From positions 1-60,096 of the forward strand of contig JAJRZK010000030.1 in assembly GCA_024275315.1 (NCBI GenBank): DNA of 60,096 nt. Direction: 5' to 3'. A program made the position numbers and the translations under genes. Below are positions 222 to 30,800 of the stretch, one piece after another. The first letter of the stretch is position 1; each line of letters starts with the position of its first letter. The notes below the pieces were generated by a model that did not search any database, was not told the origin of the DNA, and saw nothing but the letters and a program-made list of their open reading frames with translations. Source of the DNA: Nitrospirota bacterium. GTDB lineage: Bacteria > Nitrospinota_A > UBA7883.

Positions 222-246
222 TGTCCGTCAATTCGGGGGAAGTTCA
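222..246. repeat. Terminal inverted repeat of the IS3-family element
   Basis: This 25-base end is read on the minus strand as TGAACTTCCCCC followed by GAATTGACGGACA. Its first three bases, TGA, are in frame with the neighbouring radical SAM gene and form that gene's stop codon. Only one copy is in the window, so the match to the other end is not tested. Confidence 0.65.
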
Positions 247-2456: not shown

Positions 2457-2483
2457 GTTATAACCAAAACCTGGTGCGTTATT

Positions 2484-4477: not shown

Positions 4478-4588
4478 AATCCACCAATTTACTATAACTG
4501 CGCTATTGCACATCTATTTATCGATAGCTATAGATACTGCAAGTGCTTGATAATAACCAATATAACACAAAGCCGACATTGAAATATC

Positions 4589-6919: not shown

Positions 6920-7536
6920 TGATTATCCGTGATGGTTATAGACATCAGCGACGTATCCCCCGACGGATCGGTTGTTTTTATTTGTGTGATCCGGTTGTCG
7001 CTTCCCGATATCTCGATGGTTTTAATCACTTTTTTCATCCGCTTTGTTCTTGGTTCAAGAACCATGGTCCAATTCTTTCCTCTGTGAAAACCGATCTTGT
7101 AAAAACGTTCCAGCGTGTCGATATCCCCGGCCAGCGTCGCCCGAACACTCTCCACAAAACCCCACAATATGATGTCCCGTTTCAGCGAGAAGGTTTTTGT
7201 TCTGTTTTTGTTTGTGTCGGCCACGGTTACTTTTTCACCATCAACTACGTAACGCTCATCAACCGGATCACCAACCTGCTTTTCCAGGTACGAAGGCGCG
7301 ATATATTTCAACAGACCGTAAGTCGTGATCGGTTTTGCAAGAACAGACATCTGTTTGGTTTCGGTAAACTTGGCCTCTATCCGCCGCACACTGGCCAGTC
7401 GAACCATCAACGCCGCCAGTTCCGGATCACGTTTAGTGGAACCATCTTCCGCCCCCTGTCCCGGCACAGGCGCATGGACGATACAAAACAGCGCGATCGT
7501 CATTGCGAGAAAGGGTCTTGGCCTGATGTGCCTCAA
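6916..7536 (-). CDS. LolA-like outer-membrane lipoprotein carrier-related protein
   Basis: A predicted periplasmic protein of about 206 residues with a signal peptide (Arg-rich start, FLAMTIALFCIVHA core, likely cleavage near GQGA). It then has a LolA-type fold: ASVRRIEAKFTETKQ, YLEKQVGDPVDERYVVDGE and a beta-rich C-terminus. LolA-like proteins next to MMPL exporters in polyene clusters (ApeL-like) are thought to ferry a hydrophobic product across the periplasm. I favour the TTG at 7534-7536, one base after the acyltransferase stop, because it gives a complete signal peptide. An ATG at 7501-7503 would remove the charged start. A longer frame running into the acyltransferase gene is unlikely. 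Confidence 0.72.
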   Translation of the reverse strand: MRHIRPRPFLAMTIALFCIVHAPVPGQGAEDGSTKRDPELAALMVRLASVRRIEAKFTETKQMSVLAKPITTYGLLKYIAPSYLEKQVGDPVDERYVVDGEKVTVADTNKNRTKTFSLKRDIILWGFVESVRATLAGDIDTLERFYKIGFHRGKNWTMVLEPRTKRMKKVIKTIEISGSDNRITQIKTTDPSGDTSLMSITITDNQ

Positions 7537-7537
7537 C

Positions 7538-8443
7538 CTAGTCCCGCTCCCAGAATTCGTAGAAGTTAAACCAGTTATATGGCTCTTTCCGGCAGTAATA
7601 CTCCAGCCTGGACGAATATTTCTGGGTGAGCGCGTCAAGGTCGGCTTGTCTGTTTTTTTTGCTCAGCTCCACTTTTTCTGAAAATCGTTCCACGTGTATT
7701 TCATACCGGTTGCCCCCGCAATACAGGCCGAAAAACAGCACAACAGGAGCCTGGACCACACCTGCCAGTATCATCGGAGCCTGGGGGAAAAAGGCGCGCC
7801 CACCAAGAAACTCGCACATGGAGACCTTTTCGGATCTCATGGTCCTGTCGCCCAAAACGCCGACAATCTCTCCTTTTTCTATCCTCTCCCTGGCCACCAG
7901 CAGGGCGTCCGGCCGGCCGGTGTTTATTATCCGTCGAGCTAATTCGGGATTGATCGATTTTAGCACTTCGCTTATTTTCCGGGAGTTGTCCTCATACATC
8001 AGGATGTTGATAGGTGTTTTTGTTTTTTTCGCCCCTATGGCGCGCAGGATTTCAAAACTGCCAAGGTGGGAGCCGAGAAGGAAAAAACCCTTTCCCGTGT
8101 TCATGTAATGGAGCAGTATGTCCAGACCGAATATTTCTATATCCAGCAGATCATGACGATCGGTGAGCATGTATACCCTGTCAAGAATTGTCGCGGCGAA
8201 TGTGTGATAGTGTTTGTAGACCTCGTACATTGTGGATGGCCGGCCGAATATCCTTGCAAGGTAATTTCCGGAATGTGTGCGGGTGGCCCTGGAGAACAAA
8301 AGAAAATACAGGCAGATCGGATACAGCAACGCCCTCCCGGTTGGACGCCCGATCCTGCTCGCTATCCAGGCTATCAGGTTAAGCGAAAATTTGGAGCCTC
8401 GCTCCGACTGGTTCAGCCATCCATCTTTTGCGAATTCAGCCAT
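7538..8443 (-). CDS. LpxL/HtrB-family acyltransferase
   Basis: This roughly 301-residue member of the lysophospholipid/lipid A late acyltransferase family has an N-terminal hydrophobic segment (residues 38-50) and the catalytic H-x4-E motif as His126-LGSF-Glu131. Such enzymes act on the cytoplasmic face of the inner membrane. In aryl-polyene clusters related acyltransferases help attach the polyene chain to a lipid anchor, which is the likely role here. The start at 8441-8443 (MAEFAKDG) overlaps the AMP-ligase stop by eight bases. The frame is open further upstream but would lie wholly within the ligase gene. Confidence 0.82.
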   Translation of the reverse strand: MAEFAKDGWLNQSERGSKFSLNLIAWIASRIGRPTGRALLYPICLYFLLFSRATRTHSGNYLARIFGRPSTMYEVYKHYHTFAATILDRVYMLTDRHDLLDIEIFGLDILLHYMNTGKGFFLLGSHLGSFEILRAIGAKKTKTPINILMYEDNSRKISEVLKSINPELARRIINTGRPDALLVARERIEKGEIVGVLGDRTMRSEKVSMCEFLGGRAFFPQAPMILAGVVQAPVVLFFGLYCGGNRYEIHVERFSEKVELSKKNRQADLDALTQKYSSRLEYYCRKEPYNWFNFYEFWERD

Positions 8444-9812
8444 GGTCACCGTTTGAAATTTTTCCGCCCATTTGCTTTTTCGCCAATTCGATAAGTTCAG
8501 CGTGAGGGATTTTACCCGTGTCGTTTCTCGGGAGGGAGTCGACCATGACAATCGGCCGTGGTATGAACGCCGGATCGACGCTTTTACCCAGCTCGGCGAT
8601 AATCATGCTTTCGCTCATTGCAGGAGCCGCCACAACCGCCGCCAGCCGCGCTGTTTTTCCGTCTGTGGCACGTTCCGGCATAAAGAAAACACCATCCTCA
8701 ACCCCTTCTATCTGGTTGAGCTTTATGTTCAGGTCCCCCAGGGACCCCCTCTTGCCCGCGACATTTATCATGTCGCTACTTCTGCCGAGCAGTATGAACT
8801 GATCCTGGCCTGCAAGCTCCAGGTCATCGGCGATGACGCCCGGAATGTCTATATGACCTCCACGAGCCTCGAATCCTTTGTCGGTCTTGCAAATCTTTAC
8901 ACCATCAAAAGTTTTCCATAAATCCGTTTCCACCGTGCGCCTGGTTGCGATGGATCCGGCCTCGGTACAGCCGAATATTTCCATAACCCTGGTTTTCAAC
9001 ACCTCCTCCGCCTGCGCCGCCAGTTCTCTTGATAACGGAGCCGTGGCGGAGATTACCAGCTCGGTCTCCGGCAGGGCGATTTTGTCCCTGACCAGAGCCC
9101 GCAGATGAACCGGTGTTGTCACAAGTGTTCTTGGTTCCGGGCAGATTGAAAGGGCGCGCAGGATATCCTCCGGGAAAAACGAGCTACCTGTGTAAAAGGC
9201 TCCGCCGTTACGAAGCGGATTCATGATCGAGGTTTCAAATCCATACATGTGCTGTTGCGGGACGGTCGCCACGACGCTGTACGGGGACCCAATACCCAAC
9301 CTTCGGCCGGCCAATTGCGCGTTCTTAACCAGCGAACCCCAGCTTTTCATATGCCGGGTGGGAGAGCCGGTGGAGCCGGATGTAAACACTATTACGGCGA
9401 CCTGCTCCAACGGAAATTCCGGCGAGGCGGGCGCTCCGCCGGTCTCATTGGTCTCCCAACGGTCCAGTATAAGCGTATTGATGGCAATCGGTGGTTTTTG
9501 CGTGTCCGCCAGGCAAAAAACACCCGGGTACTCATCCCTTATGCGGCCAAGCGTCTCCGGCGCCGTGGTGTGCGGCATCAAGGTCACCTGACGGCGCATC
9601 ATCGCCGCGCCGAACCCGACCATGAACGCATACCTGTCCTTGCACAGGTTTATGACATATCCGCCATCCGGCATCCTTGAGGCCAGCTTGTCCAGGTCAT
9701 GGAGACACCTGTGTGCTGTGACAGGCCCGCCAGCGCCGATGGAAACGGGCCAGGCGCCGCTTCGACGCCCCAGCAACGACGCCGTATCAGTCGATGACGT
9801 AATGGTGTCCAC
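8436..9812 (-). CDS. AMP-binding acyl/aryl ligase (adenylate-forming)
   Basis: This 458-residue adenylate-forming enzyme is shorter than most acyl-CoA synthetases. It shows the phosphate loop FTSGSTGSP (143-151), the A5 core FGCTEAGS, the A8 hinge LGRSSDMINVAGKRGS and a C-terminal GKIPHAEL carrying the A10 lysine. It would activate an acyl or aryl starter to the AMP ester for transfer to CoA or a carrier protein. As first gene of the operon it matches the ApeH-type ligase of aryl-polyene clusters. The start is GTG (9810-9812) with GGAT about seven bases upstream. The transferred acid is unknown. Confidence 0.85.
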   Translation of the reverse strand: MDTITSSTDTASLLGRRSGAWPVSIGAGGPVTAHRCLHDLDKLASRMPDGGYVINLCKDRYAFMVGFGAAMMRRQVTLMPHTTAPETLGRIRDEYPGVFCLADTQKPPIAINTLILDRWETNETGGAPASPEFPLEQVAVIVFTSGSTGSPTRHMKSWGSLVKNAQLAGRRLGIGSPYSVVATVPQQHMYGFETSIMNPLRNGGAFYTGSSFFPEDILRALSICPEPRTLVTTPVHLRALVRDKIALPETELVISATAPLSRELAAQAEEVLKTRVMEIFGCTEAGSIATRRTVETDLWKTFDGVKICKTDKGFEARGGHIDIPGVIADDLELAGQDQFILLGRSSDMINVAGKRGSLGDLNIKLNQIEGVEDGVFFMPERATDGKTARLAAVVAAPAMSESMIIAELGKSVDPAFIPRPIVMVDSLPRNDTGKIPHAELIELAKKQMGGKISNGDHG

Positions 9813-18077: not shown

Positions 18078-18929
18078 TTAGCCGAATTTGTCCAACTTGT
18101 GAATTCTGAGCTCCGGATTGTCATATTCAGGCGCTATATCTTTCAAAATCCTGCCGTCGCCCGGCACTATCAAATCCGGAACAATATCAACCATGGGCAT
18201 GAAGACAAATTGTTGGGTGAGCAGTTGCGGGTGGGGAAGACATTCCCCTCCGTCGATCTTCCCGAAGACATCCCCGTACATCAGCAAGTCGATATCTATG
18301 GGTCTCGGGGCGAACTTGTCTTCTGTTCTTTTTCTGCCGACTATTTTTTCTATAAGAGCGATTTCGCCCCGCAGACCGAATATGTCTTTTTCTGTTCTTA
18401 TTTCCACTGCCATGTTGTGGTAATCAGGCTGTTTTTCCTTCACCCCCCACGCTTCAGACACATATACGGGGGAAAGCTTCAGAACATCGAACCGTGATCT
18501 TAAAAGGTCGAGCGCCCTGGATATGTGACGCTCCGGGTCTATGTTGCCCCCTATACCCAAAAACATCCTGCGTCCCAGGTTTTCCCTGATGATCCGGACT
18601 GATATGTTCCGCGAATTCCTGATGGCGCCTGGCTTGGAAACGGTTACCTGCGCCCGCATTACTCCTTTATGGCCCAGGCACAACGCCGCGATACGCTCTG
18701 CCATGGTCTCGATAAGAAAAAAGTCGCTGGGCTCTACGAGCTTTAGTATGTCCTTGGTGATGGATTTGTAGTTTACGGTAAGATCGATATTATCACTGAT
18801 GGCGGCAAGCGCCAGGTCGCAGTCCAGCTCCAGGCTGATCTGAACCTTCTGCCTGGTCTTTCTCTCCCAATCGAAAATTCCTATTACGCAGTCTATTTCA
18901 AGACAATCGAGAATAATTTTGTCTGCCAT
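18078..18929 (-). CDS. folK: Fused dihydroneopterin aldolase - HPPK (FolB-FolK)
   Basis: A single chain of about 283 residues joins two folate enzymes. Residues 1-115 are FolB-like (GIFDWERKTRQ, ETMAERIA, VTVSKPGAI with the catalytic Lys). The rest is 6-hydroxymethyl-7,8-dihydropterin pyrophosphokinase (MFLGIGGNIDPERHI, KFAPRPIDIDLLMYGD with its metal-binding Asp pair). Together they convert dihydroneopterin to the diphosphate needed for dihydropteroate synthesis. I use the ATG at 18927-18929; a GTG four codons upstream is also possible. Such fusions occur in scattered bacteria and fungi. Confidence 0.88.
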   Translation of the reverse strand: MADKIILDCLEIDCVIGIFDWERKTRQKVQISLELDCDLALAAISDNIDLTVNYKSITKDILKLVEPSDFFLIETMAERIAALCLGHKGVMRAQVTVSKPGAIRNSRNISVRIIRENLGRRMFLGIGGNIDPERHISRALDLLRSRFDVLKLSPVYVSEAWGVKEKQPDYHNMAVEIRTEKDIFGLRGEIALIEKIVGRKRTEDKFAPRPIDIDLLMYGDVFGKIDGGECLPHPQLLTQQFVFMPMVDIVPDLIVPGDGRILKDIAPEYDNPELRIHKLDKFG

Positions 18930-19091
18930 GGTTTTCGTCACTTAAGGTATGTTAATAATCACATGAAACTCGATGAGGAGCCGAACGCCACATCGCCATT
19001 ATGATATCATCAGAAATAGCTCAGTTCGACCAAGGTACATGATCTATTATCTGAAAGTCGCCGCGTTTCGTTTAGTAACCATTATGGCCGA

Positions 19092-19838
19092 ATGGTAACA
19101 TATATTATGGTCTCTCTGAACGCCGAGCTGAAATCGCTTATAAGAAACCTGGGCGCCGATCTGGTAGGGTTTGGCGACATTTCCAAAGGCGAAGAGCGCA
19201 AATTGCTTGCCAGTGAACTTGCGCATTTCACCGTAGCGATCTCCATGGCCGTCAGGCTCCAGCCCTATCCAAATCACAGGACACATAAGAAACAAAGAGA
19301 CGACCATCAAAAAACCATCGATAACATGCGGGAGAATGAAGATGTAATTCAACGACTTAATATGATATTGAAGAAAACCACGCAAAAACTGAAATCCTAT
19401 GGATACAAATATTTCGCTATTCCGCCGGTCCACAGCGCAAACGATCAAAGGTTCATCATGGCCTTGTACAACATGTTCCCGCACCGCACGGCGGCCACAC
19501 TGGCCGGTTTGGGATGGATCGGGAAAAACGGTATGCTGATAAACGGACAATATGGCCCGAATCTTGTCTGGGCTACAATATTGACCAACGCTCCGATCAT
19601 CACGGCCAGCCCGCAACTGGTCAGTCTTTGCGCCCGTTGCGACATATGCCAGAAGGCGTGCCCGGTGGGGGCTATAAAGGGGATAAACTGGAGCAGGGAC
19701 ATAGGAAACGACGAAGTGATAGATATTCGGGAGTGCGAAAAATATATGGAAACGAACAAAGCGAGGTTCGGCAGGCCGGTTTGCGGGATTTGCTTTATGG
19801 CGTGCCCTCTGGGCGCTAAAACAACACGTTCCGAATAA
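19092..19838 (+). CDS. Epoxyqueuosine reductase-like Fe-S protein
   Basis: This 248-residue protein resembles the Fe-S and N-terminal parts of QueG. It carries a first cluster motif CARCDICQKACP (C-x2-C-x2-C-x3-CP) and a second CGICFMACP near the C-terminus, both for [4Fe-4S] clusters. It is much shorter than true QueG (about 370 residues) and lacks its C-terminal extension, so tRNA modification is unlikely. Its place directly ahead of two MtaA-type methyltransferases, a corrinoid protein and a reactivase suggests electron delivery to a corrinoid; that is inference. No clear ribosome binding site marks the start; ATG 19107 is an alternative. Confidence 0.7.
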   Translation: MVTYIMVSLNAELKSLIRNLGADLVGFGDISKGEERKLLASELAHFTVAISMAVRLQPYPNHRTHKKQRDDHQKTIDNMRENEDVIQRLNMILKKTTQKLKSYGYKYFAIPPVHSANDQRFIMALYNMFPHRTAATLAGLGWIGKNGMLINGQYGPNLVWATILTNAPIITASPQLVSLCARCDICQKACPVGAIKGINWSRDIGNDEVIDIRECEKYMETNKARFGRPVCGICFMACPLGAKTTRSE

Positions 19839-19885
19839 GGTTTTACAATCACAACATCTGATTCTTATATACGAAAGGGATGATA

Positions 19886-20914
19886 ATGAACCCAAAACAG
19901 ACTGTTTTCAGTGCGATGGAAATGAACAAGCCACCCCGAGTTCCCGTCGCGCCGTTTGGTTGCGGAGTGTGGACAATCCATCGGTCGGGTACGACGTTTA
20001 AGACTCTTTCACAAGACCCGGAATTGATGGCCAAAACAAACCTGGAGATATATAAACAGTTCAAGCCGGACATCGTATACGTCGGTTCCGGCTATAACAA
20101 CCTGCACGCCGCCGCCCTGGGGGGGACCATAAAATACAGGGAGATAGGAGCGCCGGACCTGGAAGAGCCGTATATAAGCGACTTGTCGGACATAGACAAG
20201 CTGGATATAGGAAAAATACCGGACGACCCCGTCATACAGACCATCTGGGAAGCGGCCCGCATCGTGAAAAAAGAAATCGGCGATGAAGCGGTTGTCACCG
20301 TGACCGCGTGGGGGCCGTTCACACTCGCCGCCCAGCTCGTCGGTGTGGAAAAAATGATGAGAGCGACGTTCAAAAACAAGGAGTTGGTAAACGCCTCCTG
20401 CGATTTTGCCGTTAAAATGATACAAGCTATTTTCGGCCCGCTGGTGGATGACAAAACCATAGAACTGATTTCCATGGCCGACCCCACCGCGTCCGGCGAC
20501 CTGATATCCCGCAAACAGTTTGAAAAATTTGCATTGCCCTACATCCAGCAGATGACATCCTGGTCGAAATCGAAAGGCTCCAAATCGCTGTTGCATATCT
20601 GCGGCGATACGAATAATCGGCTGGACCTGTTGGGAGAGACCGGAGCCGACTGCATCAGCCTGGACCACAAGGTGGACCTTGCAAAAGCCAAATCCGAGAT
20701 CGGGAACAAAATATGCATAGCAGGTAATGTGAACCCTGTCCATGTTCTCGATCGGGGGAGCCTGGACGAGGTGAGGCGAGTTGTGGGCGAATGTCTTCAC
20801 GCGGGCGCCGAGGGAGGCGGGTTCATACTTATGCCAGGTTGTGATCATCCGCCCACGGTACCGGATGAGAACCTGAAGGTTTTTTACGACATGGCAAAAC
20901 AATATACGCGGTAG
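19886..20914 (+). CDS. Uroporphyrinogen decarboxylase-family methyltransferase (MtaA/CmuA-like), copy 1
   Basis: A 342-residue UroD-fold TIM barrel with the zinc-type ligands of cobalamin methyltransferases: His237-x-Cys239 (LLHICG) and Cys319 (MPGCDHPP). The family segment ADPTASGDLISRKQFEKF is also present. MtaA, MtbA and CmuA use this site to activate a thiol for methyl transfer to or from a corrinoid protein. I chose the second ATG because AAAGGG lies six bases upstream; the first ATG (19880) overlaps that site. It is adjacent to a second UroD-like gene and a corrinoid protein. True heme enzyme function is ruled out by the Cys ligands and context. Confidence 0.8.
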   Translation: MNPKQTVFSAMEMNKPPRVPVAPFGCGVWTIHRSGTTFKTLSQDPELMAKTNLEIYKQFKPDIVYVGSGYNNLHAAALGGTIKYREIGAPDLEEPYISDLSDIDKLDIGKIPDDPVIQTIWEAARIVKKEIGDEAVVTVTAWGPFTLAAQLVGVEKMMRATFKNKELVNASCDFAVKMIQAIFGPLVDDKTIELISMADPTASGDLISRKQFEKFALPYIQQMTSWSKSKGSKSLLHICGDTNNRLDLLGETGADCISLDHKVDLAKAKSEIGNKICIAGNVNPVHVLDRGSLDEVRRVVGECLHAGAEGGGFILMPGCDHPPTVPDENLKVFYDMAKQYTR

Positions 20915-20955
20915 TTGCGGAACTGCCGGAAAACAAAGCATAGGAGAAGCGATAG

Positions 20956-21987
20956 ATGACACACTCAACTTCAAGGGACAGAGTGCTTGGCATGTTAAGG
21001 GGGGAGAAGGTCCATCCTGTGCCCTGCTTTTCAGGGGTTGGCAACGTGACCACCAAAGGGCTGGACAAGCTCGGCTACCGTTTCGCCGACGTTCACAACG
21101 ACGCGAAGATGATGGCCGAAGCGGCGGTGACAAGCTGGGAGCTGTACGGTTACGAGTGTGTCGTGGTTCCCTTTGATCTTTGTATGGAGGCGGAGGCGCT
21201 GGGGTGCGCCATGAACCCGTACACCGAGACTGACGAGCTGTTATACCCGACCATCAAGGAAAAAAGCAAGCTGACCACGGAACAGATCAGGGAAGCGGCC
21301 AACCCCAGCCTGGTGACGAAAGGCAGGATTCCGTTGATAAAAGAGGCCGCCAGGATTGCCCGGGAAAAGGTTGGCGACCAGGTGGCGATAGGCTCATACA
21401 CCCTGGGTCCGTTCACGCTCGGTGGCCAGATCGGCGAGCTGGAGCCGCTACTGAAAAACGCGTTTAAAAAACCGGACGAGATGCTCGACTATCTGGACGC
21501 GTTGGCCGACGTTATAACAATCATCGGCAAGGAGCTGATGGAATCTGACGTGGACTTTATCTCCGTTCGTGAGATGGGCGCAACCACCGACGTCCTTTCG
21601 CCGCGGGTGTTCAGGAAGATCATCTGCGGTCCTTTGAAGAAAATCGCCAAGAGCCTGCCTTCTCCGAACATACTGCACATTTGCGGAATGGTCACGCCCA
21701 TTTTGCAGGATATGGTCGATTGCGGGTATGACGCCATCTCCATAGACTCCAAGACACCACTTAAAGAGGCGCGTGAAAAGCTGGGACCGGACGTGGTTAT
21801 CTGCGGGAACATAAACCCGTTTTCCACGCTGAACACCGGAGAGCCGCAAGAGGCGTATAACATCGCCGCGCAATGTGTGAAAGATGGCGCAAGTGGTGTT
21901 CACCCTGGGTGCGACATATGGCCCACGGCCAAACCGGAGAATATCGAAGCGATGATTAACGCGAGCAAGGAAACGGCGGTGGAATAA
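20956..21987 (+). CDS. Uroporphyrinogen decarboxylase-family methyltransferase (MtaA/CmuA-like), copy 2
   Basis: A second UroD-fold protein of 343 residues, clearly diverged from the first but with the same ligand set: His241-x-Cys243 (LHICG) and Cys319 (HPGCD). It begins MTHSTSRDRVLGMLRGEKVH, a typical N-terminus for the family. Two such proteins side by side suggest that one loads the corrinoid protein from a methylated substrate and the other unloads it onto a C1 carrier, as in two-methyltransferase systems. Which does which cannot be read from the sequence. It starts 41 bases after copy 1, with GGAG ten bases upstream of the ATG. Confidence 0.8.
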   Translation: MTHSTSRDRVLGMLRGEKVHPVPCFSGVGNVTTKGLDKLGYRFADVHNDAKMMAEAAVTSWELYGYECVVVPFDLCMEAEALGCAMNPYTETDELLYPTIKEKSKLTTEQIREAANPSLVTKGRIPLIKEAARIAREKVGDQVAIGSYTLGPFTLGGQIGELEPLLKNAFKKPDEMLDYLDALADVITIIGKELMESDVDFISVREMGATTDVLSPRVFRKIICGPLKKIAKSLPSPNILHICGMVTPILQDMVDCGYDAISIDSKTPLKEAREKLGPDVVICGNINPFSTLNTGEPQEAYNIAAQCVKDGASGVHPGCDIWPTAKPENIEAMINASKETAVE

Positions 21988-22004
21988 AATAACAAGATAA
22001 TGGG

Positions 22005-22077
22005 ATTGTTCATAAAGGTGACCCAACGCAGTGCCACGACTAGCAGTTTCAGTCTTGGAGGGCGCCTGGTGAACAGT
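22005..22077 (+). promoter_or_regulatory. Candidate structured leader before the corrinoid protein gene
   Basis: The 125-base gap here can fold. ATTGTTCA (22005-22012) pairs with TGAACAGT (22070-22077), AGG pairs with CCT inside it (22016-22018 with 22065-22067), and a small inner hairpin joins GACT (22038) to AGTC (22051). It does not show the cobalamin riboswitch core by eye. It could be a processing or regulatory element that sets corrinoid protein levels; this rests on pairing only. Confidence 0.25.
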
Positions 22078-22112
22078 CCCGATAAAAACTAACAAAAACA
22101 TTGGAGAAATCA

Positions 22113-22784
22113 ATGGACGCGGCCAAGAAAGAGGAATTACTTAAAAGACTGTCCCAAGGTGTGGTGGAGTTTGAGGATGACGAGGTAAAAGAGGCGGCGG
22201 AGGAATGGGTCGCCACCGGTGAGGACACGTATGACGCCATCTTTGACGGGCTGGTTACCGGCATGGAGGAGGTTGGCAGGCTGTTTTCGGCCCAGGAATA
22301 TTTCGTTCCGGAGATGCTCATGGCGGCGGATTCGCTTTATATCGGACTGGATATTCTAAAACCCCACATGAAGCAACGCGACACAAACGTGAAAGGGACA
22401 GTGGTTATCGGCACCGTGCAGGGAGACGTGCATGATATAGGAAAGAACATAGTAAAAATGATGTTCGACGTGGCCGGGTTCGATGTGTATGATCTCGGGC
22501 GCGACGTGCCGCTGGAGGATTTTCTCAAAAAGCAGTTGGAGACAAAGTCCGATATCGTCTGTCTTTCGGCCATGATGACCACCACGATGATGGGCATGCC
22601 GAAAGTTATCGAGATGATAAAGGAGAAGAATCCGAACTGCAAGATACTGATAGGCGGCGCACCCATCACCGATGATGTTGCGGGCAAATTCGGAGCCGAC
22701 GGAACCGCAAAGGACGCGTCCAACGCGCTCGAAGAGGCGGTCAAAATGGTCGTGGCGCTAAAAGACCTTCAAAAAAACAGCTAA
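22113..22784 (+). CDS. Corrinoid (cobalamin-binding) methyltransferase protein, MtaC/MtbC-like
   Basis: This 223-residue protein has a helical cap domain (about 1-90) and a cobalamin-binding Rossmann domain with the D-x-H-x2-G motif (D105-V-H107-D-I-G110), the histidine that serves as lower cobalt ligand. Later SAMMTTTM and LIGGAPITDD are the remaining cofactor-binding loops. It carries the methyl group between two methyltransferases. The ATG at 22113 has GGAG seven bases upstream; a TTG four codons upstream overlaps that site. Its neighbours are two UroD-type methyltransferases before it and a reactivase after it, a complete transfer set apart from a substrate-specific MtaB/MttB-type enzyme. 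Confidence 0.9.
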   Translation: MDAAKKEELLKRLSQGVVEFEDDEVKEAAEEWVATGEDTYDAIFDGLVTGMEEVGRLFSAQEYFVPEMLMAADSLYIGLDILKPHMKQRDTNVKGTVVIGTVQGDVHDIGKNIVKMMFDVAGFDVYDLGRDVPLEDFLKKQLETKSDIVCLSAMMTTTMMGMPKVIEMIKEKNPNCKILIGGAPITDDVAGKFGADGTAKDASNALEEAVKMVVALKDLQKNS

Positions 22785-22817
22785 AAACCCAGTATTAACA
22801 GGTCATACGTAGTAACC

Positions 22818-24797
22818 ATGAGCGAGCATACAGTTATTTTTCAGCCTTCGGGCAGGAGAGGCAAGATCAAGGAAGGTGAAACTCTGCTGGAGGCGGCCCG
22901 GTCCCTCGGTGTGGAGATAGAATCGATATGCGGAGAGAAGAAAACCTGCGGCAAATGCAAAGTGCAGGTGGAAGAGGGGTTTTTCGAAAAATACGGGGTC
23001 GATTCCAAAATGTCGAACCTGACAGGCTGGACACCTGATGAGGACAGGATGCTGAGCTCGGCCGAAAAAGAGAACAAATATCGGTTGTCATGTCTGGCGC
23101 ATGTGCAGGGGGAGTTGCTGGTTTTTGTGCCGGAGGAGTCCCGGGGTGGCCAGCAGGTTGTTCGCAAGAAAGCAGGCAAGCTCAAATACAAGCCCGATCC
23201 GGCGCTGGAGATCTTTTACATAGAAATGTCCGCTCCATCCCTGCATGACCCGGAGGATGATTTTTTGCGGGTAGCCAAGGCTTTGAAGGAGAAGCATGGG
23301 CGTGAAGTCGGGAAAATTGATATCTATTGCCTCAAAACCATGGCGGACACCCTGCGAAAAGCCAAGTGGAAGGTTACCGTTTTCGTATGGAACGACCAGG
23401 TGGTGCGGGTGGTCCCCGGCGAGGTGGAGAAATATTACGGCATAGCGGTGGATATCGGAACCACCACGGTGGCCGCTTATCTTACCGACATGAAAACCGG
23501 CAGGGCCGTCGCCGTCGATTCGAAGATGAACCCGCAGGTTATCTACGGCGAGGATGTCATGAGCCGCATCACTTACGCCATGCAGAACCCGGGTGTGGGG
23601 CTGGAGAAAATGAACGCCGCCATATTAAAAGCGTTAAACGAGCTTATCGGATCGCTGGTCGAGGAAATCGGCGTCACGAGAGACGACATCCTGGAGATGA
23701 CGCTTGTGTGCAACACCGCCATGCACCACATCCTGCTGGGGTTGAATCCGGAGCATGTTGGTGTGGCCCCGTTTCCCACCGCGATGGCGCCTGCGATGGA
23801 TATAAAGGCCCGTGACATGGGGCTTGACATAAACAAGTCCGGCAACATCCATATCCTGGCTAACGAAGCCGGGTTCGTGGGGGCCGACAACTGCGGTGTG
23901 CTTATCGCCGAGGAGCCGTACAACTCCGAGGAGACCGTGCTGGTCATAGATATAGGCACGAACGGAGAGCTGTTGTGCGGGTCGAAAAAGCTGGGGGTGG
24001 TCTCCTGCTCTGTCGCTACGGGTCCCGCTCTTGAGGGCGCCCAGATAAAGTTCGGCATGAGGGCGGCCCCGGGCGCCATTGAAAAAGTGGAAATAGACTC
24101 CGAAACCCTGGAGCCGCGCTACAAGGTGATAGGCAAAACGGATTGGCACACGCATATTCATGAGATCGACGCAAAAGGGATTTGCGGGTCGGGGATCATC
24201 GATGTGGTGGCGGAGCTTTTCCGCACCGGCATTATCGACAGGGGCGGCAGGTTCTCCAAACACGCGCCCACAAAACGCCTGGTCAAAGACCCGGACACCG
24301 GCCAGATGGAGTATATCCTGGCATACGAGCCGGAAACTTCCATCGGGAAGAATATTTCCATAACCCAGGGTGACGTAAGGGCGATTCAGCTGGCCAAGGG
24401 GTCGATCTACTCGGGGGCGGTGATCATGATGAAACGCCTGGGAATAGACAAGCTCGACAAGGTTATCCTGGCTGGCGCGTTCGGATCGCATTTGAACCAG
24501 TTTTCATGCATGTTCATGGGGATGTTTCCCGATGTGGACATCAAGAACGTCTACGCTGTCGGCAACGCCGCCGGTGATGGGGCCCGGCTTGTGCTGATCA
24601 ACAGGGACAAAAGGCGGGAAGCGGACGAGATGGCCAGGAAGGTGGAGTATCTCGAGCTTACGGTTTATGAGAATTTTGAAAGAGTGTTCATGGAAGCGAT
24701 GCAGTTTCCCCATATGACAGACTCTTTCCCGTCCATCCAGCATGTTCTCGACGAAATCCCGAACTGGAAAAAGATAGCCAAGGAGAAAAACGCGTGA
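22818..24797 (+). CDS. Corrinoid-activating ASKHA/ferredoxin protein (RACo-like)
   Basis: A 659-residue protein with an N-terminal [2Fe-2S] ferredoxin domain (C38-x5-C44-x2-C47, then C92), a middle linker domain and a C-terminal ASKHA ATPase-like domain. The ASKHA domain has phosphate loops IAVDIGTTTVAAY (about 209-221) and VIDIGTNGELLCG. RACo proteins reduce inactive Co(II) to Co(I) on corrinoid proteins, driven by ATP. Its position 33 bases after the corrinoid protein gene fits that role. The length matches the family (about 600-650). Confidence 0.88.
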   Translation: MSEHTVIFQPSGRRGKIKEGETLLEAARSLGVEIESICGEKKTCGKCKVQVEEGFFEKYGVDSKMSNLTGWTPDEDRMLSSAEKENKYRLSCLAHVQGELLVFVPEESRGGQQVVRKKAGKLKYKPDPALEIFYIEMSAPSLHDPEDDFLRVAKALKEKHGREVGKIDIYCLKTMADTLRKAKWKVTVFVWNDQVVRVVPGEVEKYYGIAVDIGTTTVAAYLTDMKTGRAVAVDSKMNPQVIYGEDVMSRITYAMQNPGVGLEKMNAAILKALNELIGSLVEEIGVTRDDILEMTLVCNTAMHHILLGLNPEHVGVAPFPTAMAPAMDIKARDMGLDINKSGNIHILANEAGFVGADNCGVLIAEEPYNSEETVLVIDIGTNGELLCGSKKLGVVSCSVATGPALEGAQIKFGMRAAPGAIEKVEIDSETLEPRYKVIGKTDWHTHIHEIDAKGICGSGIIDVVAELFRTGIIDRGGRFSKHAPTKRLVKDPDTGQMEYILAYEPETSIGKNISITQGDVRAIQLAKGSIYSGAVIMMKRLGIDKLDKVILAGAFGSHLNQFSCMFMGMFPDVDIKNVYAVGNAAGDGARLVLINRDKRREADEMARKVEYLELTVYENFERVFMEAMQFPHMTDSFPSIQHVLDEIPNWKKIAKEKNA

Positions 24798-24846
24798 TGG
24801 GAAACACCGATCCGTTCAGAAAATATGACCTGGTGAGGAAAAACAG

Positions 24847-25857
24847 ATGAAAAAACTTGGAGTGTGCGTGGTGGGGCTCGGTTTCGTGGGCGGGCAGGCT
24901 CATGTCCCTTCCATAAACAAGATCAAAAACGCCGATTTGATCGCCGTATGCGACATGAACGACAAGCTGGCGTCGAAATACGCCACGAAATACGGCTGTC
25001 GCAAATACCTTTCCACCGATGAAGCGCTCGCCGACCCCGGCATAGAAGCGGCGATCATAGCCGTGCCGACCCCGTTCCATCTGAGTGTGGCGCTCGAGTT
25101 TATCAACGCCGGAAAACATATCCTGCTGGAGATGCCCCTAGGCGTGAACATGGAGCAGACCGGGGAGGTGATAAGGGCCGCGGAGAAGGCGGGGGTGACG
25201 TTGATGCCGAGCCTCAACTTTCGGTTCGCCCCCATCTATACCCGTATCAAGGAGATGATCGGGAAGGAAAATGTCCTGGGCGAAGGTCCCGTGGCGATTC
25301 ATTACCGTGAATATATTTCCGCCAACCTCCTAGCGGCCCAGTGGCCTCCCGGTTCGTGGGCGTGGGACAAGGAAAAGTCCGGAGGACCCCTGTTTACCCT
25401 GTCGGTCTGGTCGATCGATCTTTTCAGATGGTTGCTCGGCTCCGACCTCAAGCAACTCCACGCGGTGGCCGAAAACCACAAGTTGCCCAAGTATGGAGGC
25501 ACACACGGATATACCGGCTACGCAGTCGCAGAGTTTGCTTGCGGGACAATAGCCTCGATGCAATATTCCGGTGGTGTCAGCGCCGGCCAGACGATGGTGT
25601 CGATGGAGCTTATCGGAGAGAACACCAATATCCTCACCGCCGTGGATACGCACACAATCAGGCTTAACACCGACGACCCGTTCGAGACAGTCTACAAGGT
25701 GGACGTGTCCGGGCCGAAAATGTGGGGACACTACCAGGAGGACGAGCATTTCGTAAACAGTGTCCTGGAAGGCAAGACACCCGATATTACCCCCGAAGAC
25801 GGCATGATAGCCACCGAGGCCGGTGTAAGGATCGCTTCGATGTACAGGAGTTTGTAG
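24847..25857 (+). CDS. Gfo/Idh/MocA-family oxidoreductase
   Basis: This 336-residue NAD(P)-dependent oxidoreductase has the Rossmann motif VVGLGFVGG (G10-x-G12-x2-G15) and the family segment LLEMPLGVN. The usual catalytic Lys of EKP is replaced by Met-Pro here, so the chemistry may differ. The C-terminal alpha/beta domain is complete. Family substrates are mostly sugars, inositols and sugar acids. It is 49 bases downstream of the reactivase gene and may act on the product left after demethylation, for instance a methoxylated polyol; that link is speculative. Confidence 0.8.
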   Translation: MKKLGVCVVGLGFVGGQAHVPSINKIKNADLIAVCDMNDKLASKYATKYGCRKYLSTDEALADPGIEAAIIAVPTPFHLSVALEFINAGKHILLEMPLGVNMEQTGEVIRAAEKAGVTLMPSLNFRFAPIYTRIKEMIGKENVLGEGPVAIHYREYISANLLAAQWPPGSWAWDKEKSGGPLFTLSVWSIDLFRWLLGSDLKQLHAVAENHKLPKYGGTHGYTGYAVAEFACGTIASMQYSGGVSAGQTMVSMELIGENTNILTAVDTHTIRLNTDDPFETVYKVDVSGPKMWGHYQEDEHFVNSVLEGKTPDITPEDGMIATEAGVRIASMYRSL

Positions 25858-25885
25858 CCGGACAAAAAGCGTGTCCGAAGGAGAA

Positions 25886-25954
25886 ATGAACGCCCGTTAT
25901 ACGGTCCTGTGGTATTCTCGGTATGAGTTCTACCTGAAAGCGCAAAGGAGGTAA
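25886..25954 (+). CDS. Possible 22-residue leader peptide coupled to the peroxiredoxin gene
   Basis: A short frame, MNARYTVLWYSRYEFYLKAQ followed by RR and a stop, lies in the gap before the peroxiredoxin gene. Its TAA overlaps the next start (TAATG), and AGGAG stands before its ATG with very short spacing. A small hairpin (CGGACA/TGTCCG, 25860-25878) precedes it. The peptide is rich in aromatic residues. The coupling geometry is suggestive, but chance is possible. Confidence 0.25.
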   Translation: MNARYTVLWYSRYEFYLKAQRR

Positions 25955-26616
25955 TGTTGGACACACACGACAGTCTGCAACATCAGCTTGATGACACAAG
26001 GGAAAAATTCCTGGACCAGATTCCCGAGGGCGTCAAGAAAAAGCTCTTTGAAAACCTGCGGGAAATGGAGTCTTCCGCACTGCTTGACGATGTCATCAAG
26101 CAGGGGGATACGGCGCCCGATTTTACCCTGCCGGACGCCCACGGCGACAAGTTTAGTCTGAGCGACACGCTTTGCAAGGGGCCCATGGTGCTGAGCTTTT
26201 ACAGGGGTGAATGGTGTCCCTATTGCACTCTGGAACACAAGGTGATGGAGCGGATTTATCCTGAAATAAAGATGATGGGGGCTTCGCTGGCGGCTATTTC
26301 CCCGCAAACCATCGAACATACCTTGTCCACTGCGCAAAATTGGAAAATCTCGTTCGACATGCTGAGCGACGAGGGAAATATCGTCGCCAGGGAGTATGGC
26401 CTGGTGTTTACGGTGGATGAAGCCATCAGGGAAGTGTACAGGGATTTCGGGATAAACATCCCCGAGTACAACGGGGATGTGTCATACAAGTTACCCGTGC
26501 CTGCCATTTACATCATCGATAAGTCCGGCGTGGTGCGAAGCGCTTTTGTGAATGTTGATTATACGCTACGCATGGAGCCGGAGGATATATTGACCCAGCT
26601 TGCACAGATTGTATAA
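25954..26616 (+). CDS. Peroxiredoxin-like protein (AhpC/TSA superfamily)
   Basis: This 220-residue thioredoxin-fold protein has an N-terminal helical extension (about 1-45), then the peroxiredoxin core GDTAPDFTLPDAHG and the motif GEWCPYC (C88, C91). The first Cys is in the peroxidatic position, and a CxxC pair of this kind is usual for the Prx-like subfamily. It probably reduces peroxides or alkyl hydroperoxides, which would help protect oxygen-sensitive corrinoid and Fe-S proteins encoded before it. AGGAGG is only two bases before the ATG; a TTG at 25957 has a better spacing, so the start may be one codon later. Confidence 0.82.
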   Translation: MLDTHDSLQHQLDDTREKFLDQIPEGVKKKLFENLREMESSALLDDVIKQGDTAPDFTLPDAHGDKFSLSDTLCKGPMVLSFYRGEWCPYCTLEHKVMERIYPEIKMMGASLAAISPQTIEHTLSTAQNWKISFDMLSDEGNIVAREYGLVFTVDEAIREVYRDFGINIPEYNGDVSYKLPVPAIYIIDKSGVVRSAFVNVDYTLRMEPEDILTQLAQIV

Positions 26617-26644
26617 ACAACGCCCAGACATGCAACCACCCCCC

Positions 26645-27544
26645 ATGAGCGAATCGAATGTCAATGGTGTAGAAATAGAGGACACCTTCGCCGAGGCGTT
26701 CGGGATGAAATATTCCAGAATCCTCGTAACCGCCCGAGACAAAACCTGGCTCGACACCGTATGCTGTAGCGCCACCGGTTTTGCCACATCCGTTATCGGC
26801 TGCGGCGTGGAGGCGGGCGTGGAGGGATACACAGACGACACTCCCGACAAGAGACCGGGAGCTTTTTTGCTGTTTTTTGCAATGGGAAAAAAAGCGCTGG
26901 AAGAGCAGTTGGTGACCAGGATAGGCCAGGCGATCATGACATGTCCCACAACAGCGGTGTTCAATGCGACAGAGTCGGATACCATGATGGATATCGGGGC
27001 GAAACTCAGGTATTTCGGGGATGGATACCAGGCGTCGAAAGTGGTCACCGGCAGACGGTACTGGCGCATACCGGTCATGGACGGCGAATTCGTGGTGGAA
27101 GAAAGCTTCGGCAGGCGTGACGGTGTGGGTGGGGGTAATTTTATAATCATGGCCGAATCTTCCGGCGCCGCTCTTGAATCGGCCCGGGCGGCTGTAGGGG
27201 CCATGGACGCCATGCCGGGAGTGATCATGCCTTTTCCCGGCGGGGTGGCCCGTTCCGGTTCGAAAGTGGGGTCGAGATACGCTTTTCTCAAAGCTTCAAC
27301 GAACTCCGAGTATTGCCCTACGATCCGTCGTCAGGTTGAGGTTTCGATGGTGGGGAAGGGTGTTAACTGTGTTCTGGAAATCGTCATAGACGGGGTCGGC
27401 GAAGAGCCTGTAAAAGCGGCTATGAAAGCGGGGATCCACGCGGCTTGCTCGGTTCCGGGGATAAAAAAGGTCACAGCGGGAAATTATGGAGGAAACCTTG
27501 GATCTTTTAGGTTCGATCTGCATCTAATACTGAAGAAGGCGTAG
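26645..27544 (+). CDS. ftr: Formylmethanofuran-tetrahydromethanopterin formyltransferase
   Basis: A 299-residue protein matching Ftr/FhcD, with the conserved start VNGVEIEDTFAEAFGMKYSR and features such as ATSVIGCGVEAGVE, TCPTTAVFN and a C-terminal GGNLGSFRFDL. It moves a formyl group between methanofuran and tetrahydromethanopterin. Bacteria that carry it use it in the FhcABCD hydrolase complex for formaldehyde oxidation, or in an archaeal-like C1 branch. The FhcA, B and C partners are not in the window. I use the ATG at 26645, since homology begins there; earlier ATGs overlap the peroxiredoxin gene. An intrinsic terminator follows 25 bases after the stop. Confidence 0.9.
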   Translation: MSESNVNGVEIEDTFAEAFGMKYSRILVTARDKTWLDTVCCSATGFATSVIGCGVEAGVEGYTDDTPDKRPGAFLLFFAMGKKALEEQLVTRIGQAIMTCPTTAVFNATESDTMMDIGAKLRYFGDGYQASKVVTGRRYWRIPVMDGEFVVEESFGRRDGVGGGNFIIMAESSGAALESARAAVGAMDAMPGVIMPFPGGVARSGSKVGSRYAFLKASTNSEYCPTIRRQVEVSMVGKGVNCVLEIVIDGVGEEPVKAAMKAGIHAACSVPGIKKVTAGNYGGNLGSFRFDLHLILKKA

Positions 27545-27844
27545 AAAGCTTAACTAAGCCCAATACGGACCGCCCTTACGGTTTCCCTCTACCCCTTCCC
27601 CCCGGCATTCCGTAAGGACGGTTCGGTTTTTTTTCTGACGTGGGGTTGGCTATTTCCTAATTCCTTGTAAAATATGAATATAAAAAGTTTCCGCCTGCCA
27701 GATGCCGTGTGTGGCCGCCTGCAAATTGAAAAATATCCACCTGTTACCATGTGGATTGGGATACATCACCGATAGCGGAAATCAGATAAAACCTTTTGGC
27801 TCCGGCCGGTTTTCCTTTACCATCAACATGAGTAAATAGAAATC
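27545..27844. other. 300-base intergenic region with a terminator and a weak promoter
   Basis: The first part is the intrinsic terminator of the upstream gene string. After it a possible promoter (TTGGCT at 27646-27651, 16 bases, TAAAAT at 27668-27673) lies about 170 bases before the AddB-like gene. No gene, tRNA or repeat was found. Confidence 0.45.
27569..27634 (+). terminator. Rho-independent terminator after ftr
   Basis: ACCGCCCTTACGG (27569-27581) pairs with CCGTAAGGACGGT (27610-27622) with one mismatch, enclosing a pyrimidine-rich loop. TCGG and then eight T residues (27627-27634) follow. It closes the C1-related gene string. Confidence 0.85.
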
Positions 27845-30800
27845 ATGACCGGTGATGAAAAAAACGCCGCAACAAAAAAGAATATGACCAGCGCCAAGCC
27901 AGAGTTGACCCTTTATCCCACCTACCAGAGGCTTTCCGAAGCCATAGACCGCCTGGTGAGAGATGATCGGGACCGTGTCGCGATAAGCCCCGGGATGATG
28001 ACGATGGACCAATTCGAGAGAAAGCTCCAGGTGGAGTTGACAGGTCCCGCCAACACCGTAAGCGATTTTGGAAGGTCGATACTCATAAACAGGGTTGTCG
28101 ACAATCGCTATAAAAAAAACGCCTCGGGCGGGCTTTTCTCTCGTGTCAGGGGGTTTGCGGGGTTTTTAGAGTCGGTGCTGGCATTTTTCGACGAGTTGGG
28201 AGCGGGACTTGTGGACTGGAAGACGTTGGAAAAGATCAAGGGGTACGCGCCGGGAAAAGAGAGGGAAATAGCCGCCATATACCGCGATTACTGTGAAGAG
28301 CTCGCAAGAAAGGGGCTTCGCGATTCCGGGTTTATGCGCAGAGAGATCATAGAAGCGCTGGACGGAGATTGGACATCTCCCACCCTGTCGAGATTCGGGT
28401 CGATCCGCACCGAGGATATCTATCAATTCACCCCCTACAGGTTCGAGCTGTTCAGGAAGCTGGCGCGTACGATACCTGTGACCATCGTAATGCCCGCTCC
28501 GGACACGCGCAAGCGGGCCTTCGGGTTTGTCAACGCGAACCTGGACAAGTTTGAAGCGCTCGGGGACAAGGAGGGAAAGCTGGATATACGGTTTTCCGAT
28601 CCTGTGACCGGGCCGTTGTCGTTTCTTGGCGAGAAGATTTTCGACCTGGACCAGGGCGGTTCCGGGGTGGACGGTCCGGAATCCATGCCTGTCACCATAA
28701 TGAGCTGTTCGAGCAGGTATCGCGAAATAGAAGAGGTCGGCTCCTCGATCTTGCGTGAGCGGGAAAGGCGAGACCTGCGATGGAGTGATTTCGCTGTAGT
28801 GTTTCGCGATTTGCGCCGTTACGGCGCCATACTCGAGGATGTGTTCAACCGTTATTCAATCCCGTTTTTTTTCAAGCGGGGCCTTGGCCTGGGACTCAAT
28901 CCGCTGGTGAGGTCGGTAACGTCGGTGTTCACGGCGATAGATTCGGGCTATTGCCGCGACGACATTATCAGGATAGTCAGCTCGCCATATTTCGCCCGGT
29001 TTTCAAAAATCGACGCAGACCTGGCCCAGCGGCTCTATTTGACAGCCGGGATAATTGACGGTTCTCCCCCGGCGTGGAAAAACAAGATGAAAAAAGCCGT
29101 GACCTCCATGAAAGGAAAAGAAAAAAAGGAGGCTGGCAGGACATCAAGTATTACATTACGACTTCTCGACAGGCTCGAAAAACTTAAAATCCAGGACCGG
29201 CCGGACAGGTTTTTCGATAGTTTTCACGATATTCTCGCATGGCTCATGATCGATCCGGAGCCTGAAGAGGCGGGAAAGATCACGGAATCGATACGGTTTC
29301 GGGACCATAACGCCTATATGCAACTGCTGGAGACAATCGCCCAGGCCAGCCGGTCCGCCGCCCTGTTCGAGGCCGAATCATCGCCTGTCGGGTATGACAG
29401 GTTGCGCGCCATGTTGCAAAACCAAATCGAAAAACGATCCGTGCCGGAGCCGGGCACGGTAAACCGGAACCGCGTCCAGGCGCTGAACATTCATGATATA
29501 CCCGGCCTCAGGTTTGACACGGTGTTTGTTTGCGGGTTGCATGACGGCGAGTTTCCGTTGCGCAGTCAGTCCCGCTCGATCCTTACGGAAGACGAGCGAG
29601 TCAGGTTTAACGAACGGCACAAGCAGATTGTTGCGGATGGATCTCCGGAAACCTCCAGAGGCAGAAGAGTGTTCGACAGCGCCCAGGAAAAGTGGAGCGA
29701 GGAATCGCTTCTTTTCTTTCACTCCATAACCGCCGCCCGTGAAAACCTCACACTTTCGTATAGCCTGGTCGACCTCGATTCAAGCTCCTTGGGCAGGTCG
29801 CAGTTTATCGACGACACGTTGGAGACCCTTACCGGCGGGGCCGGCGTCAGGGAAAGGGAAAAGCTTGTAACACCCACGATGAATCTTGCCATATCAAAAG
29901 ATGTGGATGAATTCGATGACCCCGAAGAGACGCTGACCAGATTGTTGCTGGATATTTTTACGAAACAAAACGATGAAGATGCGGTTTTGGCGCGGGCCGC
30001 CAGGGTTTACCGCAGTGGCGCGGCGAAATGGAAACGGTTTAATAACCTTTTGTCGCTGGCCTCGATGGAAAGACGGAGAGACAGGTTTTTCAAAACCCCG
30101 GATTACGACGCAAGGCTGAAACTTGCGGATCAATATCTGGGGCTGTTAAGCGCGGAGCGGGAGCGTATCGTCGATATCATAGGCTCCGGCGGCCGGGTCG
30201 GATATTCCCCTACGTCGCTGGAAAAATACGGCCAGTGCCCGTTCCGCTATTTCGCATCGGCCATCCTGGGCCTTGCGCCGGAGGATGAGCCGTCGATGGA
30301 AGCCTCGGCGAAGGATACGGGCTCTATGGTGCATGAGATCGCGGAGCGGTTTTACCACTCCCTTATTCGCTCCGGCGCGTTGCCGGTGCGTGGAAGCGAA
30401 AAGGAGAAAAAGAAGCTGGGCGAAACCGCCCGTGAAGTGTTCAAAAAATACGAAACCACCGGCAAGCTGGGCGACCCGCTGATCTGGGACGCGGAAAAGG
30501 AGAAAATCCTTTACATGCTCGACAGGTGGCTGGAAGGGGAGGTCGAAGAACAGGAACAACGCGGATATGTCCCCGTTGGTGTGGAGATAAATTTCTCGTT
30601 TGACGGAAAATCCAATACACCGCTTCTTATAAACCTGCCAGGCTCCACAGACGAAAGGTACCTGAAAGGGATAATCGACAGAATCGACATCAATAAAAAA
30701 GAGAAAGCGGTTCGCATAATCGACTATAAGCTGAGCTCGGCCAGGGGTAAGTATATGGAAATGCTGAAAGATGAAAACCTGGGCCAATGGTCGTTCCAGG

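Follow-up and report, generated by a model that had tools for sequence, protein, structure and literature searches.

Gene clusters of the mlp type are recognized by at least two MtaA-like proteins, together with a corrinoid protein and a Ram protein, encoded in one direction with short gaps (<2 kb) and with no pterin methylase within 20 kb; a type 1 cluster holds one Mlp2 and one Mlp3 (Kountz and Balskus, PMC10418091). In their enzymes, a His-Cys-Cys (HCC) zinc site is argued to favor sulfur or selenium substrates, and a carboxylate or no ligand to favor oxygen (PMC10418091). Here, we describe a cluster of this known kind in an unexpected metabolic setting. It lies on a 60,096-nucleotide stretch from a genome deposited as Nitrospirota bacterium (GTDB: Nitrospinota_A, UBA7883; assembly GCA_024275315.1, contig JAJRZK010000030.1). 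This window is the entire contig and leaves 19.1 kb upstream and 34 kb downstream of the cluster. All four operational features of mlp gene clusters are found, including the lack of a tetrahydrofolate methylase homologue within 20 kb (MtrH is confined to contig C17, and Pterin_bind to C20 and C9). We give an even chance to the reading that the operon at 19092-27544 is the entry of methyl groups into one-carbon oxidation linked to tetrahydromethanopterin (H4MPT).

Like mlp clusters, the operon combines two MtaA-like (UroD) proteins with a corrinoid protein, the activase RACo and HCC sites in a host that uses selenocysteine. Unlike them, it adds the formyltransferase Ftr and an altered protein of the Gfo/Idh/MocA fold (Gfo protein), tied to the H4MPT/methanofuran pathway, and class UBA7883 is described as sulfur oxidizers that have terminal oxidases, not as obligate anaerobes. 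A UroD-fold zinc methyltransferase with a corrinoid protein is shared with Methanosarcina MtsA/MtsB and with the SCMTs MtaA and MtbA, but here the UroDs are two and separate, and the methyl destination seems to be H4MPT rather than coenzyme M. The Cmu system of Methylorubrum CM4 likewise has two UroD-family genes, a corrinoid domain, HCC ligands and oxidation of the methyl group via a pterin; however, CmuA fuses UroD and corrinoid parts that are separate genes here, the Cmu route runs over folate in place of H4MPT, and the sequences do not group closely. With the H4MPT/methanofuran pathway of methylotrophs (Fae, MtdB, Mch, Fhc) the organism shares MtdB, Mch, Ftr and H4MPT synthesis genes, yet it lacks Fae and has a catalytic, archaeal-type FwdB with a selenocysteine codon plus FwdD, not the Fhc hydrolase complex. 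O-demethylases of the MtvB/OdmB/CdmB type differ in that HCC ligands are present here and no pterin methyltransferase (MtrH) lies in the cluster.

An earlier reading made from the letters alone (the sequence-only reading) had proposed a corrinoid methyl-transfer cluster with two UroD-type methyltransferases, and assignment with Pfam and NCBIfam profiles confirms this (Table 1). The six open reading frames of that reading are all present, occupying 19092-25857 of the + strand and separated by 33-113 bases, but the end it set at 25857 comes too early: the run continues through a peroxiredoxin and Ftr to 27544. In a scan of 84,980 genomes, close relatives of UroD1 were confined to Nitrospinota. 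The order UroD1-UroD2-corrinoid protein-RACo-Gfo-Ftr is common to the window's own genome, NC_groundwater 63_8 (NC_63_8; G019, locus L004), genome UBA7883 (G023; L005/L052), G020 and G022, with Ftr 3′ of the cluster in all five, so both the gene order and the oxidoreductase are kept in relatives of the same family. The Fe-S protein gene precedes the block except in genome UBA7883, where none was seen at the locus. Identities to the window proteins reach 86-88% for the corrinoid protein, 76-79% for Gfo, 75-79% for RACo, 71-80% for UroD1, 67-74% for UroD2 and 65-70% for Ftr. Orthologues in the same order at 67-88% (46-54% for the Fe-S protein, in L004, L045 and L046) indicate that the six reading frames are real genes. 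A peroxiredoxin gene between Gfo and Ftr occurs also in G022 (45% identical) and is not there in G020 and genome UBA7883.

Both UroDs match the URO-D family (226 and 220.5 bits); their identity to M. mazei MtaA is 30.7% and 32.2%, and the pairwise identity between them is 27.8%. Plain HemE was rejected for both, with TIGR01464 scores of 63 and 55 bits against a cut-off of 303 and a HemE clade standing apart (100/100) in an IQ-TREE tree of 37 UroD-family sequences, ClMlp references not included. Wherever the site is covered, UroD1 and UroD2 rows retain the HCC zinc ligands of MtaA, which HemE lacks; CmuA has them as well. For UroD2, only the cut-off of the broader PRK06252 subfamily is exceeded (247 vs 244 bits), not those of the MtaA and MtbA equivalogs; for the MtaA equivalog NF040654 (cut-off 400 bits), UroD1 scores 153 and UroD2 231. 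The top NCBIfam match of UroD1 is MtaA/CmuA (195 bits), below whose cut-off both proteins fall. In the tree, UroD2 groups with MtaA, one Acetoanaerobium cluster protein and proteins of other Nitrospinota (98/94), whereas UroD1 stands outside the MtaA clade with family paralogues (100/100) and, weakly, Acetoanaerobium proteins (86/78); CmuA forms its own long branch. The two UroDs likely represent distinct lineages, UroD2 with MtaA and UroD1 apart, although this is not proven because neither a single clade for the pair (p 0.07) nor placement of both with MtaA (p 0.21) is firmly rejected by approximately unbiased (AU) tests. A third UroD-family member in the same genome is a UroD-RACo fusion. 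As a separate observation, this genome, scored 100% complete, encodes only three URO-D proteins, none of the HemE type, so heme may come by another route.

Profile searches covered 24 Nitrospinota genomes, seven from the family and 17 others. Mch and the MtdB N-terminal domain were found in 7/7 family genomes and 0/17 others, as was FwdC above its cut-off (sub-threshold matches aside). MtrH is likewise present in all seven, with only weak matches in three of the others, to a ~809-aa frame that also matches Pterin_bind; UroD1-type proteins of at least 41% identity occur in 7/7, the 17 others giving only ~30% matches. Genes for a RimK-like ATP-grasp protein, a CitG-like protein, a flavoprotein, DUF6513/PterinBD-DUF4346, DUF447 and a GHMP kinase adjoin Mch and presumably serve H4MPT biosynthesis. 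No genome of the 24 has MttB (the MTTB-family MT1, PF06253), the acetyl-CoA synthase CdhC/AcsB or Fae (PF08714). A methylamine/betaine system was rejected for the lack of MttB, acetogenesis by the Wood-Ljungdahl route for the lack of acetyl-CoA synthase, and formaldehyde oxidation via Fae and H4MPT for the lack of Fae; without Fae, one-carbon units would enter at the methyl level and not by the standard formaldehyde route. The sequence-only reading had found no MtaB, MttB or MtrH and concluded that a UroD must act on the methyl donor. Its absences stand for the cluster, and for MttB throughout the genome; MtaB was sought in the cluster only, not genome-wide. MtrH, however, is encoded on contig C17, which removes the ground for that conclusion. 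At two loci (L104:9510-13809, own contig C18; L105:5591-9927), the gene after MtdB encodes a second corrinoid protein, and genes for an AtoS-like histidine kinase and a response regulator come next; together these may form a corrinoid-based sensor that controls the one-carbon pathway.

The last step of the proposed route would fall to formylmethanofuran dehydrogenase (Fwd). In genome UBA7883, the FwdB gene carries a single in-frame TGA at codon 121, and TGA stands at the same position in G020, G022 and the window's own genome, four genomes in all. It aligns with the Cys in SVCHGPS of FwdB 5t5i_B and gives a UHxP motif, which is listed for selenocysteine FwdB (PMC13188914). Read with selenocysteine, the protein scores 505 bits (504.7) to TIGR03129 (cut-off 328) and 390 bits to 5t5i_B. 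Downstream of the TGA, as upstream, third codon positions change more than first and second ones, which argues for coding constraint beyond it. A similar hairpin lies 3′ of the TGA in 4/4 genomes, with z-scores of -2.7, -1.6 and -0.8 in the three tested, which is only suggestive; SelB is encoded near FwdB in G022 (L101; 371 bits, cut-off 242). The gene order FwdDBAC and the UHxP motif are those of archaeal Fwd and FwdB is of the archaeal catalytic type, while the bacterial host and the hairpin 3′ of the TGA set it apart; the FwdD-like subunit scores below the cut-off of its curated model. A bacterial selenocysteine formylmethanofuran dehydrogenase is thus probable from these sequence features. 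We found no prior report of one in the literature searched, which is no proof that none exists.

Gene content and its conservation, the zinc and corrinoid motifs, the co-occurrence with MtrH, MtdB, Mch and Fwd, and the Fwd TGA codon are observed here, and from them we infer the substrate class, the direction and the flux as a whole. UroD1 and/or UroD2 would use their HCC zinc to activate a methylated soft nucleophile and transfer the methyl group to Co(I) of the corrinoid protein. RACo would restore Co(I), perhaps with electrons from the Fe-S protein, and MtrH, encoded elsewhere, would move the methyl group from the corrinoid protein to H4MPT rather than folate. Methyl-H4MPT would be oxidized to methylene-H4MPT, a step with no assigned enzyme, and then to CO2 by MtdB, Mch, the cluster's Ftr and the selenocysteine-type Fwd. 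The most likely donor would be a methylated thiol, e.g., methanethiol or dimethylsulfide, because the zinc sites are HCC, no transporter lies within the conserved block, and class UBA7883, including NC_63_8 and genome UBA7883, encodes reverse Dsr, Sqr and Sox (PMC10839748), by which sulfide from S-demethylation could be used or oxidized. The source organism is an uncultured Nitrospinota bacterium, probably a sulfur oxidizer; the published survey of this phylum never mentions methanopterin (PMC10839748).

For the step without an assigned enzyme, the Gfo protein is, by elimination, a candidate of low probability. Both domains of its family, the NAD-binding Rossmann domain (PF01408) and the C-terminal domain (PF02894), score above cut-off, and the structures closest to it are those of sugar and inositol dehydrogenases; its predicted structure is weak (predicted local distance difference test (pLDDT) 45), and Foldseek matches merely return the same family. 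In the window protein, as in each of its four aligned orthologues, the catalytic EKP is changed to EMP, Asp to Thr and His to Trp, although the GLGFVG nucleotide motif is kept. With Lys, Asp and His replaced throughout, a role as a standard polyol dehydrogenase appears unlikely. Its candidacy rests on its being the sole conserved NAD-type oxidoreductase encoded with Ftr, on the loss of the sugar residues next to a retained NAD site, and on genome UBA7883 lacking Mer and any methylenetetrahydrofolate reductase (MTHFR). The most extended version is a full archaeal-style route from methyl groups to CO2 within a bacterium, in which an mlp-type corrinoid system supplies the methyl groups, a selenocysteine formylmethanofuran dehydrogenase performs the last step, and the Gfo protein, as a new NAD-dependent methyl-H4MPT dehydrogenase, replaces Mer/MetF; it is decidedly unlikely to be right in all its parts.

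Several observations weigh against entry into H4MPT-linked oxidation. Mer is absent from all 24 genomes, with no luciferase-family match even at E 0.001 and ten control genomes positive. An MTHFR domain occurs in the family only within ~612-aa frames in 5/7 genomes, genome UBA7883 (99% complete) has none, and no family member has a stand-alone MetF, so that no enzyme can be assigned to the step from methyl- to methylene-H4MPT. In all genomes seen, MtrH lies apart from the cluster, and members of the MtrH family can also act on folate; in G023, a UroD1 paralogue and a second MtrH are ~7 kb apart. The donor is not revealed by any substrate or transporter gene, and HCC ligands do not exclude halomethanes because CmuA shares them. 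Finally, the 7/7 versus 0/17 contrast sets one clade against the rest and therefore counts as one evolutionary event.

Among the alternatives, salvage of methyl sulfides or selenides is unlikely but fares best. The UroDs would take methyl groups off methyl-selenol or dimethylselenide, or pass them to another thiol, so that selenium or methionine is recovered, and the connection with H4MPT would be secondary. This alternative would fit the mlp features, the HCC zinc and a host that uses selenocysteine (FwdB TGA; SelB in G022); most organisms with type 1 clusters show selenium traits, and ClMlp2 methylates selenide (PMC10418091). Nevertheless, Ftr and the modified Gfo protein are fixed in the operon, no selenium or methionine gene lies within it, and the cluster tracks the H4MPT pathway, Nitrospinota without H4MPT carrying a different UroD-pair cluster (L109, L110).

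An improbable second alternative reverses the flow: Fwd, Ftr, Mch and MtdB would reduce CO2 toward methyl-H4MPT, MtrH would load the corrinoid protein, and UroD2 would methylate homocysteine or another thiol. All these pathway steps are reversible in archaea, and genome UBA7883, which lacks both an MTHFR domain and a MetH-type Pterin_bind protein, must obtain the methyl group of methionine in some other way. The window's own genome, in contrast, retains the cluster alongside an 807-aa MetH-like Pterin_bind frame and a 612-aa MTHFR-domain frame; moreover, one acceptor does not require two UroDs, and the step between methylene- and methyl-H4MPT would equally have no assigned enzyme.

Still more improbable is a Cmu-like dehalogenation by UroD1 or UroD2 of chloromethane or another methyl halide. 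The top match of UroD1, the shared HCC ligands and the two UroD-family genes of the CM4 cmu locus point in this direction, a volatile donor fits the absence of a transporter, and haloalkane methyltransferases may have several origins within UroD (PMC13222342), but both UroDs miss the MtaA/CmuA cut-off, CmuA is a UroD-corrinoid fusion on its own branch, and genes specific to halides or to the Cmu system are missing. O-demethylation of a methoxylated sugar, polyol or aromatic, with the Gfo protein oxidizing the demethylated sugar, is the least supported and least probable, for although the Gfo protein is strictly conserved with the cluster and structurally nearest to sugar and inositol dehydrogenases, the methoxylated sugar or polyol hinted at by the sequence-only reading loses its main support with the catalytic residues gone in all orthologues, both UroDs carry the S/Se-type HCC site where O-demethylases swap Cys for a carboxylate or lack zinc (PMC10418091, PMC13222342), and no sugar transporter lies in the conserved neighborhood.

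Beyond Ftr, a ~1060-1100 aa exonuclease-helicase-type protein is encoded in the window, G020, G022 and genome UBA7883, and folB-hppK flanks the cluster in genome UBA7883 as in the window. No cobalamin riboswitch or other known RNA was found in the window or seven related loci, except one tRNA. Upstream, on the - strand at 244-9812 of the window, genes for B12/radical SAM, glycosyltransferase, two ketosynthase, MMPL, LolA-like, lipid acyltransferase and AMP-binding proteins suggest a lipid or aryl-polyene-like biosynthesis cluster.

Table 1 Features of the operon and of associated one-carbon genes. Coordinates without a prefix refer to the window; C, contigs of the same genome; L, loci.
Feature	Coordinates	Strand	Remarks
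Fe-S protein, QueG/reductive-dehalogenase-like	19092..19838	+	two 4Fe-4S motifs: CARCDICQKACP at residue 180, CGICFMACP at 231
UroD1, URO-D/MtaA-CmuA-family methyltransferase	19880..20914	+	zinc ligands H239, C241, C321
UroD2, MtaA-like methyltransferase	20956..21987	+	above the PRK06252 subfamily cut-off (NCBIfam); zinc ligands H241, C243, C319
Corrinoid protein (MtbC/MttC/MtgC type), two-domain, B12-binding	~22101..22784	+	base-off B12 motif DVHDIG at residue 109; alternative start ATG at ~22113
RACo-type ATP-dependent corrinoid reductive activase	22818..24797	+	N-terminal 2Fe-2S domain
Gfo/Idh/MocA-fold protein	24847..25857	+	NAD motif GLGFVG retained; sugar-dehydrogenase catalytic residues replaced
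Peroxiredoxin (AhpC/TSA)	25954..26616	+	Pfam
Ftr/FhcD, formylmethanofuran:tetrahydromethanopterin formyltransferase	26600..27544	+	428 bits vs cut-off 297; likely start ATG ~30-45 bases downstream of 26600
Terminator-like hairpin and T tail	27796..27809	+	sole +-strand one in 18800-28200, 3′ of Ftr; weak, such sites being no commoner than in shuffles
FwdB with in-frame TGA, own genome	L211:664-1989		end of contig C49
FwdB with in-frame TGA	L100:6605-7942		
FwdB with in-frame TGA	L102:2718-4016		
FwdB with in-frame TGA	L101:13171-11882		
MtrH, own genome	C17:33638-34468		
Mch, own genome	C20:100966-101895		
MtdB, own genome	C18 at 81554		
FwdC, own genome	C40:866-1651		

Other corrinoid loci were seen along the way. 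Nitrospinota without H4MPT genes (L109:7795-15295, L110:1-3877) have a cluster of a corrinoid protein and two UroDs that differs from the one described here, in L109 additionally with RACo and a hydantoinase-like protein. Another arrangement, kept in two Nitrospinota (L050:1776-12000 and L006), combines a UroD2-like gene with genes for a CobW GTPase, an ATPase-like protein and a VWA-like protein; a third UroD type, a corrinoid protein and RACo come after these. In three genomes (L049:363-2132, L048:1-1449, L004:1027-2793), a ~589-aa protein with no Pfam or NCBIfam match adjoins a UroD1 paralogue; the structure prediction for this ~588-aa protein (pLDDT 38) is unusable. A corrinoid protein and UroD(-RACo) occur with a histidine kinase and response regulator, a diguanylate cyclase or ATP-binding proteins at L051:6880-12893 (own contig C11), L114:4332-9323 and L115:4372-9521, possible methyl-corrinoid chemosensors; the Azoarcus UroD(-RACo) signaling locus adjoins formylmethanofuran dehydrogenase B.

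If methyl groups do enter H4MPT-linked oxidation through this operon, the sulfur oxidizers of class UBA7883 would also use methyl groups, possibly demethylating organosulfur compounds and oxidizing both halves. The operon would join mlp-type corrinoid clusters, whose role is uncertain, with the H4MPT/methanofuran pathway, usually separate from them and here without its formaldehyde entry enzyme, and it points to a missing enzyme for oxidizing methyl-H4MPT, for which a candidate is named here. A selenocysteine formylmethanofuran dehydrogenase in bacteria would bear on the view that this Mo/W enzyme lineage is archaeal only.

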